Source: Microbacterium sp. SYP-A9085 (GTDB lineage: Bacteria > Actinomycetota > Actinomycetes > Actinomycetales > Microbacteriaceae). From it: DNA of 64,000 bases. The stretch's first letter is position 1. The number at the start of each line of letters is the position of its first letter. Below are positions 1 through 8,832 of this stretch, one piece after another. The position numbers were made by a program, and so were the translations under genes. The stretch covers positions 62,001-126,000 of the forward strand of contig NZ_WJII01000005.1 in assembly GCF_009649635.1 (NCBI RefSeq), read 5' to 3'. The notes under the pieces are model-generated. The model was not told where the DNA came from, ran no database searches, and worked only from the letters and a program-made list of their open reading frames with translations.

Positions 1-1251
1 GGATGCCTGCGCCTTGTCGTCACGCTTGGACGACGTCAATTGCGCGGTGAGCTGCTTGTTGACGACATGCGAGACAATCTGGCGCACCGCGGGCGTGCCG
101 AGGACCTCCTTGGTCTGACCCTCGAACTGGGGCTCGGGCAGACGCACCGTCAGCACGACGGTGAGCCCCGCCAGCATGTCGTCCTTCTCGAGCTTGTCGT
201 TGCCCACCTTGAGCTTGCGCGCGTTCTGGTCGACCTGCGCGCGGATCGCCTTCACGAGCCCCTGCTCGAAGCCCTGCTGGTGCGTGCCGCCCTTCGGCGT
301 CGCGATGATGTTGACGTACGAGTGCACGACCGTGTCGTACCCGGTCCCCCAGCGCACCGCGACGTCGACCTCGCAGCGTCGCTCGAGCTCGGTGGGGATC
401 ATCGTCCCGGACGGCTGCAGCACCGGCACGGTCTCCGTGAACGTGCCGGAGCCGGTCAGCCGCCAGGTGTCAGTGACCGGCGCGTCGGGTGCGAGGAACT
501 CGGCGAACTCGGAGATGCCGCCGTCGAAGCGGAACACCGACTCCACCGGCGGGAATCCCGCCGCCACCTCGCGCTCGTCGCGGATCACCATCTCCAGGCC
601 CGGGACGAGGAACGCCGTCTGGCGCACCCGCTGCTCGAGCTCGGTGAAGCCGAACGCGGCATCCCGCGTGAAGATCTGCGAGTCGGCCCAGTAGCGCACG
701 CGGGTCCCGGTCACGCCCTTCGCGACCTTGCCCACCGTCCGCAGCTTGCTGGCCTTGTCGAACGGCGTGAACGGGGCATCCGGCCCTTCGCCGTCGAACA
801 TCCCCGGCTCACCGCGGCGGAACGACATCGCCCATGTCTTCCCGTCGCGGTCCACCTCGACATCGAGCCGGCCCGACAGCGCGTTGACCACGGACGCGCC
901 GACGCCGTGCAGGCCGCCGGACGCGCTGTACGAGCCGGTGCCGAACTTGCCGCCGGCGTGCAGCTTCGTGAAGACCACTTCGACGCCGGTCAGTCCGGTG
1001 CGCGGTTCGATGTCGACGGGGATGCCCCGCGCGCGGTCGCGGACCTCGACGCTGCCGTCCGGGTACAGGATCGTCTCGATACGGGTGCCGTGGCCGGCCA
1101 GGGCCTCGTCGACGGAGTTGTCGATGATCTCCCACAGGCAGTGCATGAGCCCGCGCGAGTCCGTCGAGCCGATGTACATGCCCGGGCGCTTGCGGACCGC
1201 CTCCAGGCCCTCGAGCACCTGCAGATGATGGGCGGAATACTCGGGGGTCAC
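1..1251 (-). CDS. parE: DNA topoisomerase IV subunit B (ParE), C-terminus outside window
   Basis: Type IIA topoisomerase ATPase subunit; with ParA/ParC-type partner it decatenates or relaxes DNA. The GTG start at 1251 gives a protein opening with MTPEYSAHHLQVLEG, followed by the GHKL ATP-binding signatures: RKRPGMYIGST, the Asn/Asp-containing WEIIDNSVDEALAG near residues 42-55, and the glycine-rich lid YSASGGLHGVGASVVNALS. The transducer domain follows (QTAFLVPGLEM, IIATPKGGTHQQGF). 417 codons are present and the frame is open at base 1, so the TOPRIM and C-terminal parts lie outside. GyrB is the close alternative; proximity to DUF7455 and sigA is the usual actinobacterial neighbourhood of the second, ParE-type gene. 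It diverges from the small gene at 1442. Confidence 0.85.
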   Translation of the reverse strand, partial: MTPEYSAHHLQVLEGLEAVRKRPGMYIGSTDSRGLMHCLWEIIDNSVDEALAGHGTRIETILYPDGSVEVRDRARGIPVDIEPRTGLTGVEVVFTKLHAGGKFGTGSYSASGGLHGVGASVVNALSGRLDVEVDRDGKTWAMSFRRGEPGMFDGEGPDAPFTPFDKASKLRTVGKVAKGVTGTRVRYWADSQIFTRDAAFGFTELEQRVRQTAFLVPGLEMVIRDEREVAAGFPPVESVFRFDGGISEFAEFLAPDAPVTDTWRLTGSGTFTETVPVLQPSGTMIPTELERRCEVDVAVRWGTGYDTVVHSYVNIIATPKGGTHQQGFEQGLVKAIRAQVDQNARKLKVGNDKLEKDDMLAGLTVVLTVRLPEPQFEGQTKEVLGTPAVRQIVSHVVNKQLTAQLTSSKRDDKAQAS

Positions 1252-1441
1252 AATCCTCAAGGATATCGGGAGGCCCGGACACCGCCCGTGCCGACACTCG
1301 GTGGGCGGGCTCCGAGTGGCTCTGCGGCGCCCGTGGGGTACGCGGTCAGCGAAATGCCGACCGTTCACGGCATGACCCCAGGCCGCCCGTGGTTGTATGT
1401 CGTGAACGAACCGTCCATCACACGCACGAGGAGGCCAGACG

Positions 1442-1660
1442 ATGAGCACACTCACCACGCCCGAGGAGCAGAGCCTCCTCGAGTACCGCCTGACCGCGAT
1501 GGACCGGTGCGACGCGTGCGGAGCGCAGGCCTACATCGCCGTCGAGGTCGGTGGCAGCGAGCTGCTGTACTGCGCGCACCACGGACGCAAGTTCGAGCAG
1601 AAGCTGCGCAGCGTGGCCACGTCGTGGCACGACGAGACCGCCCGGCTGAACGAGGCCTGA
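1442..1660 (+). CDS. DUF7455 small zinc-ribbon-like protein
   Basis: 72-residue conserved actinobacterial protein of unknown function. Cys pairs suggest a small metal site: DRCDACGAQAY (CxxC) and LLYCAHHGRKF (CxHH). The ATG at 1442 follows a strong AGGAGG at 1430-1435. It diverges from parE across a 190-bp gap that contains a GTTCACG (1363-1369) / CGTGAAC (1401-1407) inverted pair, which might be regulatory. The parE - DUF7455 - sigA neighbourhood is typical of actinobacteria. No function can be assigned from sequence. Confidence 0.8.
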   Translation: MSTLTTPEEQSLLEYRLTAMDRCDACGAQAYIAVEVGGSELLYCAHHGRKFEQKLRSVATSWHDETARLNEA

Positions 1661-1667
1661 TCCCCCG

Positions 1668-2696
1668 TCAGCGGTAACGGCGCGGCAGCCGCGGCGAGAT
1701 CCGCAGCACGACCTGTTCGCCGATCGTGCCGAGAAGTTCCGCGACGTCGGTCGCCGACAGCGGTGCGCGGCCGCCGAACAGGGCGACGTCCTGGCCCGGG
1801 GCGGCGCCCGGCCACGCCTCCACGATGGTCGTCGTCTCGGCGACAGTGCGGACACGGCGCGGTCCCCCGGGCGTGCCCGCGTCCAGGTGCCCGGCCAGAC
1901 GCGAGTCCAGTCCGTCCAGGCTTCCGATCGCCAGCGTCACGGCGTCGCGGGTGACGTCCGCGACCGGCGCGACGAGGGTCGCGACAGGCAGGATCCCGAG
2001 TTCGGCGTCGGACGGGCCGCCGGAGGGACGGATGCCGTAGGCGTACGCCCCGATCCGGACCAGATCGAACCGGAACTCGGCGCGCGCGAACCCCGCCGCA
2101 CTGGCGGCCAGATGCCGCAGCAGAGGGCGATTTCCGAATGCCGCGGCCGCCTCGAGGAACTGGGCGCGCGACGCGTCATCCTCGGCATCCGAGGATTCGG
2201 CGATGTGGCTCCACACGCCCACGACGCGCAGGGACCCGGATGCCTCGGCGCGGCACGCCTCGGCGACGGCGTCGCTCCACTGCTCGGGACGGATGCCGTT
2301 GCGATGCAGCCCGGTGTCGACCTTGAGGTGCACCTGTGCGACCGTGCCCGCGGCGGCGGCGCGCTCGGCGACCATCGCCAGCAGCGGTCTCGTGCCCACG
2401 CCCAGGTCGATGTCGCCGGCGAGGGCCGCGTCGGCGTCGGCGGGGCCGTACACCGTCCACGCAATGACGCGGGCATCCGGTCCGGCCACCGCCCGCACGC
2501 GCAGGGCGGTCGCGACGTCGAATGTGCCGAACCAGTCCACGCCGGCGTCGACGGCGGCACGCACGACCGGCTCGAGTCCGTGGCCGTACGCGTCGTCCTT
2601 CACGACCAGCAGGTGGCGTGCGGGGGCGACCGTCTCGCGGATCCGGCGCAGATTCGCGGCGAACGCGCCCATGTCGACGTCGAGGCGGGCCGTCAT
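1668..2696 (-). CDS. Alanine racemase family protein, lysine-bearing half of a split pair
   Basis: 342-residue fold-type III PLP enzyme. The N-terminal TIM barrel is well preserved: VKDDAYGHG carries the PLP-binding Lys33 and Tyr37 (canonical VKADAYGHG), followed by VHLKVDTGLHRNG and VGVWSHIAESSD. The C-terminal domain is degenerate. It has no SYG-type catalytic tyrosine segment and no MDQ-like motif, and goes from LVAPVADVT to a short tail ending ATDVAELLGTIGEQVVLRI, which still resembles the end of Alr. The ATG at 2696 overlaps the stop of the upstream gene by four bases (ATGA). The upstream gene supplies exactly the missing region. It may racemise alanine or another amino acid (Lys, Orn, Ser); the substrate is not readable. 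See the finding on the split racemase. Confidence 0.8.
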   Translation of the reverse strand: MTARLDVDMGAFAANLRRIRETVAPARHLLVVKDDAYGHGLEPVVRAAVDAGVDWFGTFDVATALRVRAVAGPDARVIAWTVYGPADADAALAGDIDLGVGTRPLLAMVAERAAAAGTVAQVHLKVDTGLHRNGIRPEQWSDAVAEACRAEASGSLRVVGVWSHIAESSDAEDDASRAQFLEAAAAFGNRPLLRHLAASAAGFARAEFRFDLVRIGAYAYGIRPSGGPSDAELGILPVATLVAPVADVTRDAVTLAIGSLDGLDSRLAGHLDAGTPGGPRRVRTVAETTTIVEAWPGAAPGQDVALFGGRAPLSATDVAELLGTIGEQVVLRISPRLPRRYR

Positions 2697-3352
2697 CGGA
2701 CGTCCTCCCGGCTCGCGCGCGCGCCGGCGAGGCTCACCATCTCCGCCGCGCGCATCCCGGTGGCCGCCTCCCAGCCCGCGAGCGACGGCTCGCCGCGCCC
2801 GGGGTCGCCGAAGAACACGACGTCGGCGCCGGGTGCCGCGTGGGCATCCCCGAGCTCGATCACACACGCGTCCATCGCGACCCGGCCGACGATCGGCAGG
2901 CGGTGCGCGCCGACGCGCACCCACGCGCGGTTGCCGACCTCACGGACGACCCCCTGCGCGTACCCGCCGGCGACAAGACCGACCACCGTGTCGCGGGCGG
3001 CACGGAACGTGTACCCGTACGACACTCCCTCGCCGGCGCGCAGCGTCTTCGTGCTGAGCAGGCGCCCGACCAGCGACAGCACGGGACGCCCGTCGCCGCC
3101 GGGCAGCCCCCACAGCGTCCGCGGCTCGGCGATCTCCGCACCCGGAGCCAGCGTGACGGCGCCCGCTGACAGCGCCCCCGCGTCGACAAGCACCCGCAGT
3201 CCCGCCGCCGTCACAGTCTCCGCACAGGCCGCCAGCCCATGTCCCCACGCGTCGCGGCGCAGGTCCGCGTACACGGCGCCGGCCGCGCGCAGCCGGTCGG
3301 CGTTGGCGCGCAGCGCGGCGTGCGCGACGAGCGCGCGAACGGGCTCGGTCAT
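2693..3352 (-). CDS. Alanine racemase C-terminal-domain protein, tyrosine-bearing half
   Basis: 219 residues. The first ~95 residues are a shortened, degenerate TIM-barrel remnant in which the PLP lysine motif reads DLRRDAWGHG (Arg32 instead of Lys, Trp36 instead of Tyr). From about residue 96 it becomes a good alanine racemase C-terminal domain: GEGVSYGYTFRA contains the equivalent of the catalytic tyrosine (Tyr112), then VGLVAGGYAQGV and VGRVAMDACVIELGD (Met160-Asp161). Alone it cannot bind PLP through a lysine. It starts two bases after the stop of the ATP-grasp gene and overlaps the lysine-bearing racemase gene by ATGA, so the three should be co-translated. In Alr dimers the tyrosine acts in the partner's active site, so a heterodimer is plausible. 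Confidence 0.75.
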   Translation of the reverse strand: MTEPVRALVAHAALRANADRLRAAGAVYADLRRDAWGHGLAACAETVTAAGLRVLVDAGALSAGAVTLAPGAEIAEPRTLWGLPGGDGRPVLSLVGRLLSTKTLRAGEGVSYGYTFRAARDTVVGLVAGGYAQGVVREVGNRAWVRVGAHRLPIVGRVAMDACVIELGDAHAAPGADVVFFGDPGRGEPSLAGWEAATGMRAAEMVSLAGARASREDVR

Positions 3353-5568: not shown

Positions 5569-6267
5569 TCAGGCGGCGCGCACGATCCCGAGCGGCGTGG
5601 ACTCGTGCCCCTGCCCGAGCGGATTGTCGCGGAGGATAGCGACCAGACGCTGCTCGCCGGCGCGGTCGAGCGTGGACCCGAGGATGTTGCCGCCGAGGTC
5701 GTTGATGTCGACCACGGCCACGTCGCAGTGGCCGCCCACAAGCGCCTTCAGGTGCGCGGCGACCTCCCGGGGCCGATCCGGGCCGAGCACGACCGCCTCG
5801 TTGTACGGCGGGATGGTGTGCTTCGTGGGTCCGTCGATCGCACGGGCCCGCTGCCCCGCGATGCGGTAGAAGTCGCCCTTGCGTCCGAACGCCTTGGTGA
5901 CGGCCGCGACGGCGGCGGCGAACAGGATCCGCGGCGTGCCGCACTCGCGCAGCGCCATCTCCATCGTCTCGGGCATGCCGAGTCCGATGCCGTACGGCGT
6001 CTTCGTGACGTACTTCGCGAGGAACGACGCGAGCCGGCGGGGCCGGATCTCGGCGACCGGGAACGACCGGCCCTGCGTGATGGCGACGATCTTCTCGGTG
6101 ACGAACAGCACGTCGCCGGGCCGCACCTGGTCAGCCGCGTACTCCGCGATGAAGCCGTCGAGGTCGTCGCCGGGCATTACGACCCGGGTCCGGATCGGGA
6201 TGCGCGCGTACGACGCCCCGCCGACGGTGACGGTCAGCGCCTTGCCGGCGTTCGCGCCGCCGCTCAC
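5569..6267 (-). CDS. F420-0:gamma-glutamyl ligase (CofE) family protein
   Basis: 232-residue protein of the CofE-like glutamyl ligase fold. CofE adds glutamate residues to coenzyme F420 with GTP; wider family members are amide ligases of unknown target. Family landmarks: [30 protein letters not shown] (resembling the VvtsKvvSkaeGR motif), [15 protein letters not shown], and [18 protein letters not shown] at 6267 is used because it matches the family N-terminus and overlaps the sigA stop as GTGA, implying translational coupling to sigA. No F420 biosynthesis or F420-dependent gene is visible in the window. Convergent, near-contiguous placement with ATP-grasp copy B suggests an envelope amide-ligase role instead. 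Confidence is for family, not substrate. Confidence 0.7.
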
Positions 6268-7661
6268 TCGAGGTAGTCCCGCAGCGACTGCGACCGCGAC
6301 GGGTGCCGCAGCTTCGCCATCGTCTTCGACTCGATCTGACGGATCCGCTCGCGCGTCACGCCGAACGTGTCGCCGATCTGGTCGAGGGTCTTGGGCTGGC
6401 CGTCGCCGAGTCCGAACCGCATCCGGATGACGCCCGCTTCGCGCTCGCTGAGCGAGTCGAGCAGCGCCTCCAGCTGCCGCTGCAGCATCGTGAAGCCCAC
6501 GGCGTCGGCGGGGACCACGGCCTCGGTATCCTCGATGAGATCGCCGAACTCGCTGTCGCCGTCCTCGCCGAGCGGGGTGTGCAGCGAGATGGGCTCGCGC
6601 CCGTACTTCTGCACCTCGACCACCTTCTCAGGGGTCATGTCGAGCTCCCGGGACAGCTCCTCCGGCGTGGGCTCGCGGCCCAGGTCCTGCAGCATCTGCC
6701 GCTGCACGCGGGCGAGCTTGTTGATGACCTCGACCATGTGGACGGGGATGCGGATGGTGCGCGCCTGGTCGGCCATGGCGCGGGTGATCGCCTGACGGAT
6801 CCACCACGTCGCGTACGTGGAAAACTTGAAGCCCTTCGTGTAGTCGAACTTCTCGACCGCACGGATGAGACCCAGGTTGCCCTCCTGGATGAGGTCCAGG
6901 AACTGCATCCCCCGGCCGGTGTAGCGCTTCGCGAGCGAGACCACCAGGCGCAGGTTCGCGCCCAGCAGGTGGCTCTTCGCGCGCTGGCCGTCGCGGGCGA
7001 CCCACTGCAGGTCGAGGCCGAGCTTGGCCGACTTCTCCGCGGCCGACATGTGCGACAGCTTCTCCTCGGCGAACAGTCCCGCCTCGATGCGCATCGCCAG
7101 TTCGACCTCTTCGGCCGCGTTCAGCAGCGGCACCTTGCCGATCTGCTTCAGGTAGTCCTTCACGGGGTCGGCCGTCGCGCCGGTGATCTGCGTGGAGTAG
7201 ACCGGAACGTCGTCCTCGTCCTTCGACGAGATCACAATCGCGCCGGAGGGCAGCGGCTCGGTGAACACCTTCTTCTGGCCGGCCGATTGCTCGTCGTCGT
7301 CCTCGTCGTCGGCATCCTCGTCGGCGGGCGCGGCGGCCTTCTTGTCCTTCTTCGCCTGTGGCTCGCCCTCGGCGGGCTCGTCCTCGGCGGCGTCCGCGTC
7401 CGACTCCTCATCGAGGTCGACATCCTGGTCCTCGAACTCCTCGTCGGAGGCCTTCTTGGCGGAGGACTTCTTCTTCGCGGGCGCCTTCTTCTTGGCGGCA
7501 GGCTCGGCCTTTGCCGCGGTCTTCTTCGCGGGCGCCTTCTTGGCCGGGGTCTTCTTCGCCGGTGCGGTGGTCGCCGTGGCCGCGGCCTCGGTCGCCGCGG
7601 CCTCGTCGACGTCGGTGTCCTTGGTGCGCGAGCGGGTGGTGGTCTTGGTGCCTGCGGTCAC
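6264..7661 (-). CDS. sigA: RNA polymerase principal sigma factor (SigA/HrdB type)
   Basis: 465-residue group 1 sigma-70. The first ~150 residues are a low-complexity Lys/Ala/Pro then Asp/Glu-rich tail typical of actinobacterial principal sigma factors. Then: region 1.2 ([16 protein letters not shown]), regions 2.1-2.4 ([53 protein letters not shown]), region 3, and the region 4 helix-turn-helix ([19 protein letters not shown]). GTG start at 7661 follows GAAAGG. A TTGACA reads on the minus strand at 7741-7736 in the 238-bp upstream gap, but a well-spaced -10 is unclear. The stop overlaps the start of the CofE-like gene. Confidence 0.97.
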
Positions 7662-7899
7662 GTTTCGCCTTTCACCGGAAGCGTGTCCCCCACTCCCGGC
7701 CTTCTGTGAGGTTGTTCGGACACTAGTAAGACCCTTGTCAAGTCCATCCGGCGGCGAGGGCCTCGGTGAGGAGGTTCTCCGCGCGGACGCTGACAACGGG
7801 TCGGTTCCCCATTGTCTCACATCCTGCGCATCACGCCGGACGCTCCGACATCGGGTTCCTTCGTGGAAACGTCCGGTCCGCGCGGGATATTCCGCGGGG

Positions 7900-8832
7900 T
7901 CAGCCGCGCGCGCCGCCCTTGTCGTCGTCCGGTGACGGACGGGTGGCCAGGAACCTCTCGAGCTCCGCCGCGAGCTCGTCGGCGCTGGGCAGATCGCCGG
8001 TGTGCACCATCGGCACCGCCTGCGTGGTCGACCCGGCCATGTACGCGTCGTAGCGGTCCTCGAGGCCGTGCAGCATCCGGGTGAGCTCCTCGTTCTCCTC
8101 CACCTGCTCCTGCACGCGCTGCAGGAACTCACGGTTGCGCTCGCGCAGGTCGTCGCCGGTGAACACAAGCCCGGTGGCGGCGGTGATGCTGTCCAGGGCA
8201 GCGAGTGTGGCAGCGGGATACTCGGTGTCGCCGAGATAGTGCGGCACCAGCAGCACGAACCCGGCCACCGGCACGTCCGCCCGCGCGAACCGGAGCTCGA
8301 GCAGGTGCCCGATGGTCCCCGGCACCTGCGTGTGCGGGCGCCACACCGAGTGCGCCTCGGTGAGATCGCTGCGCGTGCCGCTGACGGTGGTCCCGATCGG
8401 CCGGGTGTGCGGGACCGGCATCGGGATGGCCTGCACCCACGTCACCGTGGACACGCCGTACTCTTCGGCGAGCGCGAGCACGTCGCGCGCGAAACGCTCC
8501 CACACGAAGTCGGGCTCGTACCCGGCGAGCAGCAGGAACGGCTGACCCAGGGCATCCCGCACCAGCGAGAGCTCCAGACGCTGCGGCCGGTACTCCGTGA
8601 CGCGCTCGCCGTCGAATGTCACGAGCGGGCGCCGCGCCCGGTAGTCCAGGAGGATGTCGTTGTCGAACACGGCGAGCGGCAGCGCATCAAGATCGTCGCG
8701 CATGACGTCGATAAGCTGCGACACGGCATTGCCGGCGTCCGTGAATCCGGTCAGCGCGATGACCAGCGGAAGACCCCGCGGCACCGGCGGCGCGGATGCC
8801 GCACGCTCGAACAGCGGCGCATACTGGGGCAT
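7900..8832 (-). CDS. PAC2 family protein
   Basis: 310-residue PAC2 (proteasome assembly chaperone 2-like) protein, a conserved actinobacterial family of unclear role sometimes found near proteasome genes; none are visible here. Landmarks: [20 protein letters not shown] near the N-terminus, [16 protein letters not shown], and [11 protein letters not shown]-like [18 protein letters not shown]. The C-terminal ~60 residues are charged with a short predicted coiled coil ([17 protein letters not shown]). ATG at 8832 follows TAGAGT by 6 nt, predicting a leaderless mRNA. It diverges from pepA across 100 bp. Confidence 0.85.

Follow-up and report, generated by a model that had tools for sequence, protein, structure and literature searches.

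The window analysed here is a stretch of 64,000 nucleotides of Microbacterium DNA, in which two genes, A and B, each encode one half of an alanine racemase (Alr). Both lie on the minus strand, in the order B then A. A (1668..2696, 342 residues) has a complete pyridoxal phosphate (PLP) barrel with Lys33 in the motif VVKDDAYGHG, and B (2693..3352, 219 residues) has a complete C-domain with Tyr112 and Met160-Asp161. The two frames share 4 bases in an ATGA stop/start overlap, as described in the first-pass annotation. Directly upstream of B is a minus-strand gene for an ATP-grasp protein (PF14397; 3355..4371, with a chosen start codon), followed by a divergent plus-strand gene for a second ATP-grasp protein (PF14397; 4524..5564) and a minus-strand gene for a CofE-like protein (PF01996, 45 bits; 5569..6267) that is kept where the pair is missing. 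The CofE-like gene sits beside the convergent ATP-grasp gene and abuts rpoD, the gene of the principal sigma factor (6264..8168, minus strand), which forms the conserved flank on this side. On the other side, a plus-strand DUF7455 gene of 72 codons (1442..1660) borders the site that is empty in other genomes, and the conserved flank is the gene of a GyrB/ParE-type topoisomerase B subunit (1..1458, minus strand), which is cut by the window edge and whose true start may be inside this interval. A second, intact racemase gene, for which the first-pass annotation had proposed a search, is present elsewhere in the genome (2.92 Mb, 99.99% complete) as a single alr at G000:C5:574512-575609. Among the best 80 matches listed for this Alr in a set of named genomes, most are from Microbacterium, and genomes identified through named loci, for example G612 (M. 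jejuense) and G329, agree in every match with members of the window's genus.

Both proteins are related to Alr, and each has its own pattern of retention. In A, the PLP-barrel residues Lys33, Tyr37, Lys125, Arg132, His164 and Arg214 are present, the C-domain is without the catalytic Tyr and Met motifs, the segment that would contain Tyr265 is deleted, and an acidic residue, Glu327, occupies the position of Tyr354 in BsAlr. The barrel profile PF01168 matches A across the entire model (E = 2.4e-49), and the match to PF00842 is weak (E = 4.9e-06, profile positions 32-127, 26.6 bits against a cut-off of 25 bits). In B, the corresponding motifs are LRRDAWGHG, with Arg32 instead of the PLP lysine in a barrel remnant of about 90 residues, GVSYGYTF, which contains Tyr112, and VGRVAMD. 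Here PF00842 is nearly complete (E = 1.4e-28, positions 1-125 of 127, 99.5 bits), and PF01168 gives no match at E <= 0.1. Both proteins score below the curated TIGR00492 cut-off of 168 bits (A, 134.4 bits; B, 98.3 bits). Monomer models were calculated from alignments of 40 rows, consisting of A or B and 39 canonical Alr sequences. The model of A (pLDDT 84.4) has a predicted full Alr fold that includes even the degenerate C-domain (pLDDT 63-92 by block from residue 241 onward), and its best match in a structure comparison is 5fag (Z 40.2, rmsd 1.9, 342 aligned residues, 36-37% identity). In the model of B (pLDDT 71.8), the C-domain is predicted well and compares with the Alr fold, while the remnant barrel is predicted poorly; residues 57-90 fall below 50, but low values in the N-terminal 90 residues say little, since the alignment set them against a later part of the barrel. 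The first-pass annotation had described A as keeping the barrel and Lys33 without the C-terminal Tyr, and B as keeping the C-domain with the PLP lysine lost to Arg32, and the sequences and profile matches bear out both descriptions. Its further statement that B has lost most of the barrel is correct for the window but not for all homologues, because a nearly full-length degenerate barrel is found in the B proteins of, for example, L046, L055, L062, L078, L084, L091 and L093.

The arrangement is not confined to one genome. When 249 Microbacteriaceae genomes were searched with A and with B, a search that also matched canonical Alr, 80 regions around high-scoring matches were fetched, all from within this family. 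Ten of them (L103, L108-L112 and L115-L118) have ordinary or tandem full-length racemases only. The other 70 and the window yield 72 A homologues, two of which are in L100, and 71 B homologues; the missing 72nd B would fall past the contig end in L106. Since the arrangement recurs in all these homologues, the window's included, it is not a product of chance. A genus tally over the match table places the pair in at least 27 of the 85 sampled genera, and the pair is old. Because each half is without part of the enzyme, the two genes could be taken for pseudogene remnants or for a single alr broken by a frameshift in the assembly. However, both domains occur in each of the two proteins, as a copy or as a remnant, and the losses are complementary; together with the open frames, the purifying selection described below and the recurrence in so many genera, these features rule the idea out, and it retains a negligible probability. 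In one genome (G225, L100), two B-A pairs are located about 5 kb apart on one contig, and two ATP-grasp genes lie directly before one of them.

The regions before L085 were chosen for adjacent B and A matches and are not counted as a test of whether B accompanies A. Those from L085 onward were chosen by the A match alone, and 24 of them have A (L085-L102, L104-L107, L113 and L114). B is found in 23 of these 24 regions, and the remaining one stops at a contig end. A gene B that is absent or decayed in relatives keeping A, which the first-pass annotation had named as evidence against its reading, is therefore not observed.

The two sets of sequences are complementary residue by residue. In BsAlr numbering, the active-site residues provided by the barrel subunit are taken here to be Lys39, Tyr43, Arg136, His166 and Arg219, and those provided by the C-domain of the partner to be Tyr265, Met312, Tyr284 and Asp313. 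Some of these roles are given in the part of PMC3485190 that was available. In the alignment of the 72 A and 71 B sequences, Lys39 is present in every A and in no B, where the column has Arg (37), Ser (7), Thr (5), Asp (4), Ala (4), Gly (4), Asn (1), Pro (1) or a gap (8). Tyr43 and Arg136 are likewise found in 72/72 A sequences, and in 39/71 and 15/71 B sequences, respectively. His166 and Arg219 are each conserved in 71/72 A sequences, with one gap, and remain in 4/71 and 17/71 B sequences. The C-domain residues have the opposite distribution. Tyr265 is absent from all 72 A sequences, its segment being deleted, and is present in 69/71 B sequences by alignment and in 71/71 once the SYG motif is read in two gapped rows. 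Met312 is found in 0/72 A and 71/71 B sequences, and Tyr or Phe at position 284 in 38/72 and 71/71. Position 313 is Asp in 62 and Asn in 9 of the B sequences, and Asp in 49/72 of A. Wherever it can be read, the mixed site formed by the barrel of A and the C-domain of B is intact; the opposite site has neither the lysine nor the tyrosine in any case. In the window itself, no single chain holds both catalytic bases, as the Lys is in A only and the Tyr in B only. The dead site is incompletely erased, since A still has Asp313 and Tyr/Phe284 in the numbers given, which counts against complete drift. Such reciprocal loss is expected for an obligate heterodimer with one live site, not for two separately employed enzymes; since each gene keeps the half of the racemase that the other has lost, the sequences make it very probable that A and B function only in combination.

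The two genes are also constantly adjacent. In the separate-gene pairs measured, B always precedes A. Start codons were chosen automatically and roughly, and on that basis the two genes overlap in 41 of 67 pairs and are no more than 30 bases apart in 62 (from a table of 68 rows without L111, a canonical gene; for the window itself, where the ATG overlaps, the script reports +20). A single open frame of 766 codons covers B and A in L078. L114 has them the other way round, an A-like half and then a B-like half in a frame of 671 codons; its A half has Tyr354 and groups in the tree among ordinary Alr, outside the acid-354 group, so that this fusion looks like a separate invention. Rough dN/dS ratios, for which dS is high in several comparisons, are 0.07-0.32 for A (12 close comparisons), 0.08-0.27 for the C-domain of B (11 close comparisons) and 0.09-0.59 for the remnant barrel of B, which exceeds its own C-domain in 9 of the 11. 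The parts of A and B that were tested are under purifying selection.

Could A work alone, as a homodimer that catalyses a one-base or some other PLP reaction, with B as a regulator or a decaying copy? The retention of all the PLP-barrel residues tested, the predicted folding of the degenerate C-domain and the faster change of the remnant barrel in B would fit, but this reading is quite improbable, since B accompanies A in all regions picked by A except the one that ends with its contig, keeps Tyr265 and Met312 without exception in a C-domain of low dN/dS, and is joined to A in one frame in L078 and, in another lineage, in L114. Still less probable is an action of A and B through canonical Alr, as A/Alr and B/Alr hetero-oligomers that might, for example, modulate the D-Ala supply. 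The three proteins have a fold and a genome in common, but the kept residues make up a single site from the barrel of A and the C-domain of B, and it is with B, not with Alr, that A is arranged in tandem and fused. The proposal first made, of an A/B heterodimer that has a complete site and a dead one and arose by duplication and reciprocal loss, is thus favoured by the reciprocal loss of the bases in 72 A and 71 B sequences, the constant adjacency, the fusions in both orders and purifying selection, and it probably describes the pair correctly.

Position 354 offers a clue to the substrate. In alanine racemases, this position is that of the gate Tyr, which sits on the C-terminal helix of the barrel subunit itself and faces that subunit's own site. 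In A it is Asp in 36, Glu in 33 and Tyr in 1 (L114) of the sequences, with 2 gaps, and is therefore acidic in 69 of the 70 readable cases; in B, eleven different residues are found there. According to the available part of PMC3485190, the gap between the gate tyrosine and Tyr265′ is small and defines the strict specificity of alanine racemases, residue 354 is Thr in Lyr and Ala in Bar, both Lys racemases, and in a docked model Thr391 of Lyr contacts the side-chain amino group of D-Lys, even though another helix residue, Ser394, may weigh more in Lyr. Ala racemisation by AlrTt is lowered when the corresponding residue is Asp or Glu, as stated in the portion of PMC4517790 consulted. By analogy, we infer that an acid at position 354 would open the site and offer the side-chain amino group of a dibasic substrate a negatively charged partner. 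In the A proteins read, the acid is Glu in 11 from Microbacterium (L236 being left out) and Asp in that from Leifsonia poae (L230); the choice of Glu or Asp may depend on how long the side chain of the substrate is.

Acidic residues at this position are also found in full-length enzymes of the family. In 23 tandem pairs of full-length racemases (L231-L233, which are also L109, L115 and L118, and L261-L280), picked for adjacent matches and in several cases from one genus, each pair combines one enzyme having Tyr or Trp at position 354 with one having Asp or Glu. The "canonical" partner has Trp rather than Tyr in L262, L271, L274 and L275. A tree of the barrel only, which leaves position 354 outside, was calculated from 35 A sequences (about every second of the 72, without L048, L080, L097 and L114), 23 acid-354 and 19 canonical enzymes. 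A and the full-length acid-354 enzymes fall on one side of a branch with an SH-aLRT support of 100. The split thus arose inside an acid-354 racemase family. On the same tree and with the same 35 A sequences, A as a single clade is rejected (p-AU 0.00065), and on the short C-domain tree, which includes 37 of the 71 B sequences and leaves out L105, B occupies one side of a branch (support 87, not starred). The origin may thus have involved either several splits or one split with later re-joining.

The pair occupies a characteristic chromosomal site. Near the pair in 73 loci, a GyrB/ParE-like gene is found in 70 and rpoD in 66, and these flanks indicate that the pair is mostly at one inherited place. 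By clusters across the 73 pair loci, the CofE-like gene reaches 23 and the ATP-grasp gene 19. Among 366 Microbacterium genomes, 300 have an A-type match (E <= 1.4e-49), 65 have weaker matches only (E >= 3.5e-46) and 1 has none, counts that were made by eye and in which the matchless genome is 59% complete and a few of the 65 are incomplete. When the Alr of the window's genome was used as a query, 21 of 22 weak-match genomes gave a single racemase match, and G304 gave in addition a fragment of 68 residues (G304:C2:181167-181370). G304 does not have the pair, and the fragment, which shares 60% identity with Alr, is perhaps a relic. The same query detected A and B in 8/8 pair genomes, the window's included, 3 of which have a further full-length relative. 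These further racemases are 41-43% identical to the Alr of their own genome (G264:C1:1329799-1330839, G382:C1:459125-460186 and G378:C1:911030-912085), and up to 5 racemase matches occur in some pair-bearing genomes in the named-genome search; the further full-length relatives could make D-Orn in place of the pair.

The site itself is preserved in genomes without the pair. In all 20 that were read, of 28 located pair-lacking Microbacterium genomes, the order rpoD, CofE-like gene, one or more ATP-grasp genes, DUF7455 gene and topoisomerase gene is intact, no A or B match is found in the rpoD-topoisomerase interval, and 19-215 bases separate the ATP-grasp and DUF7455 matches. The pair is all that these intervals lack, and it thus behaves as a removable module. 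Two layouts are seen in these genomes (L241-L260): 12/20 have the CofE-like gene and one g3-like divergent ATP-grasp gene, and 8/20 have it with two g4-like tandem ATP-grasp genes. The layout with two tandem ATP-grasp genes is common to M. saccharophilum, M. oleivorans P10 and M. thalli. The persistence of the CofE-like and ATP-grasp genes in all 20 genomes does not support them as obligate partners of the pair, and since their distribution does not track it, a role of these neighbours in ligation is only a guess. With one genome per genus, the CofE-like gene is found in 13 of 85 family genomes (E <= 1e-25), and five CofE-bearing genomes (G020, G023, G074, G075 and G082) have a single P0001 match each.

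In 49 named genomes, the pair is present in 32, one of which is Leifsonia poae, and absent in 17. A single change on the Alr tree (support 74) accounts for these 17 absences, so that several independent losses in Microbacterium are unsupported. One contig filed as Stenotrophomonas maltophilia P13 (L150, JACEFY010000081.1) has an alr that is 92% identical to the Microbacterium query and groups within Microbacterium in the Alr tree; the contig belongs to a mixed or mislabelled assembly.

Ornithine of the D-configuration in B-type peptidoglycan is a chemotaxonomic character of the Microbacteriaceae. The M. lacticum clade is assumed here to have L-Lys, and the former Aureobacterium species with the pair (barkeri, esteraromaticum and arabinogalactanolyticum) presumably have D-Orn. 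M. paulum, in which the pair is absent, is assigned to the Lys type only by its place in the M. lacticum clade. As stated in the available part of PMC10757982, the wall diamino acid of Microbacterium is D-ornithine, L-lysine or diaminobutyrate. The pair is present in 7/7 species for which an Orn or D-Orn type was read: M. schleiferi (Orn, from a table in PMC10978784), M. testaceum, M. proteolyticum, M. sufflavum and M. galbinum (Orn/D-Orn, from the sections of PMC10757982 consulted), and M. oxydans and M. algeriense, whose type strains have a pattern like that of the D-Orn study strains in the same sections. It is absent in M. saccharophilum, which has Lys (PMC10978784). The exception is M. 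gubbeenense, which the portion of PMC10757982 consulted reports as L-Lys inside the D-Orn clade and which carries the pair intact. For the pair-lacking oleivorans P10, telephonicum, thalli and oral taxon 186, no diamino acid was found in the literature searched. A one-sided Fisher test over the 10 species of known or clade-inferred type, 7 Orn with the pair, 1 Lys with it and 2 Lys without it, gives 3/45 = 0.07; the species are too few. Since the 17 absences amount to one change, the association with wall type, which may rest on a single loss, is suggestive rather than independently replicated.

The first-pass annotation had left the substrate open, and the reading added here favours ornithine or some other dibasic amino acid. 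It is unlikely, though not as improbable as the alternatives above, that the heterodimer is real and its substrate is not dibasic, so that the pair would be a second alanine (or serine or homoserine) racemase. This would agree with the overall fold and best matches, which are those of alanine racemases, with the intact pair in the reportedly L-Lys M. gubbeenense and with Tyr354 in the A part of L114. Opposed to it are the acid at position 354 in 69 of 70 readable A sequences, with its effect on Ala racemisation in AlrTt (PMC4517790, in the portion cited above), the presence of an intact alr as well, and the absence of the pair from the Lys-type M. saccharophilum and from M. paulum, which need D-Ala too.

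The reading preferred here, which is probably correct, is that A and B are degenerate copies of one fold-type III racemase that form an obligate heterodimer and act in Microbacterium as a D-Orn racemase for B-type peptidoglycan. It takes the dimer, its activity and its substrate from the observed sequences, conservation, location and presence or absence of the genes. The dimer would be head-to-tail as in Alr, with A supplying the PLP barrel, in which Lys33 would hold PLP, and B supplying across the subunit interface Tyr112, as the second base, and the Met-Asp motif. One site, of A barrel and B C-domain, would be live and the other dead. Glu327 of A would bind the side-chain amino group of ornithine, and the pair would convert L-ornithine to D-ornithine for the peptidoglycan bridge in Microbacterium and outside this genus might act on a different dibasic amino acid; D-alanine would come from the intact alr.

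Alanine racemase is a homodimer with two identical shared sites and is a drug target. Compared with Alr (EC 5.1.1.1; Streptomyces coelicolor, PDB 5fac/5fag), the fold is the same over the full A model and the C-domain of B, and the catalytic residues are the same once A and B are added together. However, Alr is the product of one gene, with two live sites and the gate Tyr354, whereas the pair has two genes, one predicted live site and Asp or Glu at position 354. Lyr and Bar (PDB 4dza and 4dyj) have the same fold and, as in A, the gate Tyr354 is replaced (PMC3485190, in its available part), but they are homodimers with Thr or Ala at this position, so that the acid-354 argument is one of analogy; their match to A (Z 34.4 and 33.8) is also lower than that of actinobacterial Alr. 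The full-length acid-354 racemases (L231-L233 and L261-L280) have the acid and the branch side in common with A, and are presumably homodimers since, unlike A and B, they have Lys39 and Tyr265 in one chain. The deoxyhypusine synthase of trypanosomes and their AdoMetDC with prozyme are heterodimers of paralogues, one catalytic and one degenerate. As in the proposed pair, the degenerate paralogue is needed for activity; the fold and reaction are different, and in the racemase pair both partners are degenerate, each without the part that the other keeps. Among the papers listed in searches of the open-access literature, no split or heterodimeric alanine-type racemase is described, a weak negative because subscription journals are mostly outside it; with the same limit of coverage, no ornithine racemase in Microbacteriaceae and no gene for B-type D-Orn is found among them.

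What is new is the quaternary and genetic form; the fold and the chemistry are known. Beyond the first-pass annotation, the analysis adds the acid at position 354 in A, its clade with full-length acid-354 racemases and the empty site in pair-lacking genomes. A more extensive proposal, for and against which the chances are about even, is that a racemase for D-Orn, and elsewhere perhaps for D-diaminobutyrate or D-lysine, became an obligate heterodimer from two homodimeric acid-354 genes, possibly more than once, was re-fused in at least one lineage, and by its presence at one fixed site sets a D-Orn rather than an L-Lys wall. If the heterodimer is real, it would be a natural and ancient case of two paralogues locked together by complementation, testable residue by residue. 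It would also name the racemase behind the D-Orn of B-type peptidoglycan, and wall type would become predictable from genomes.
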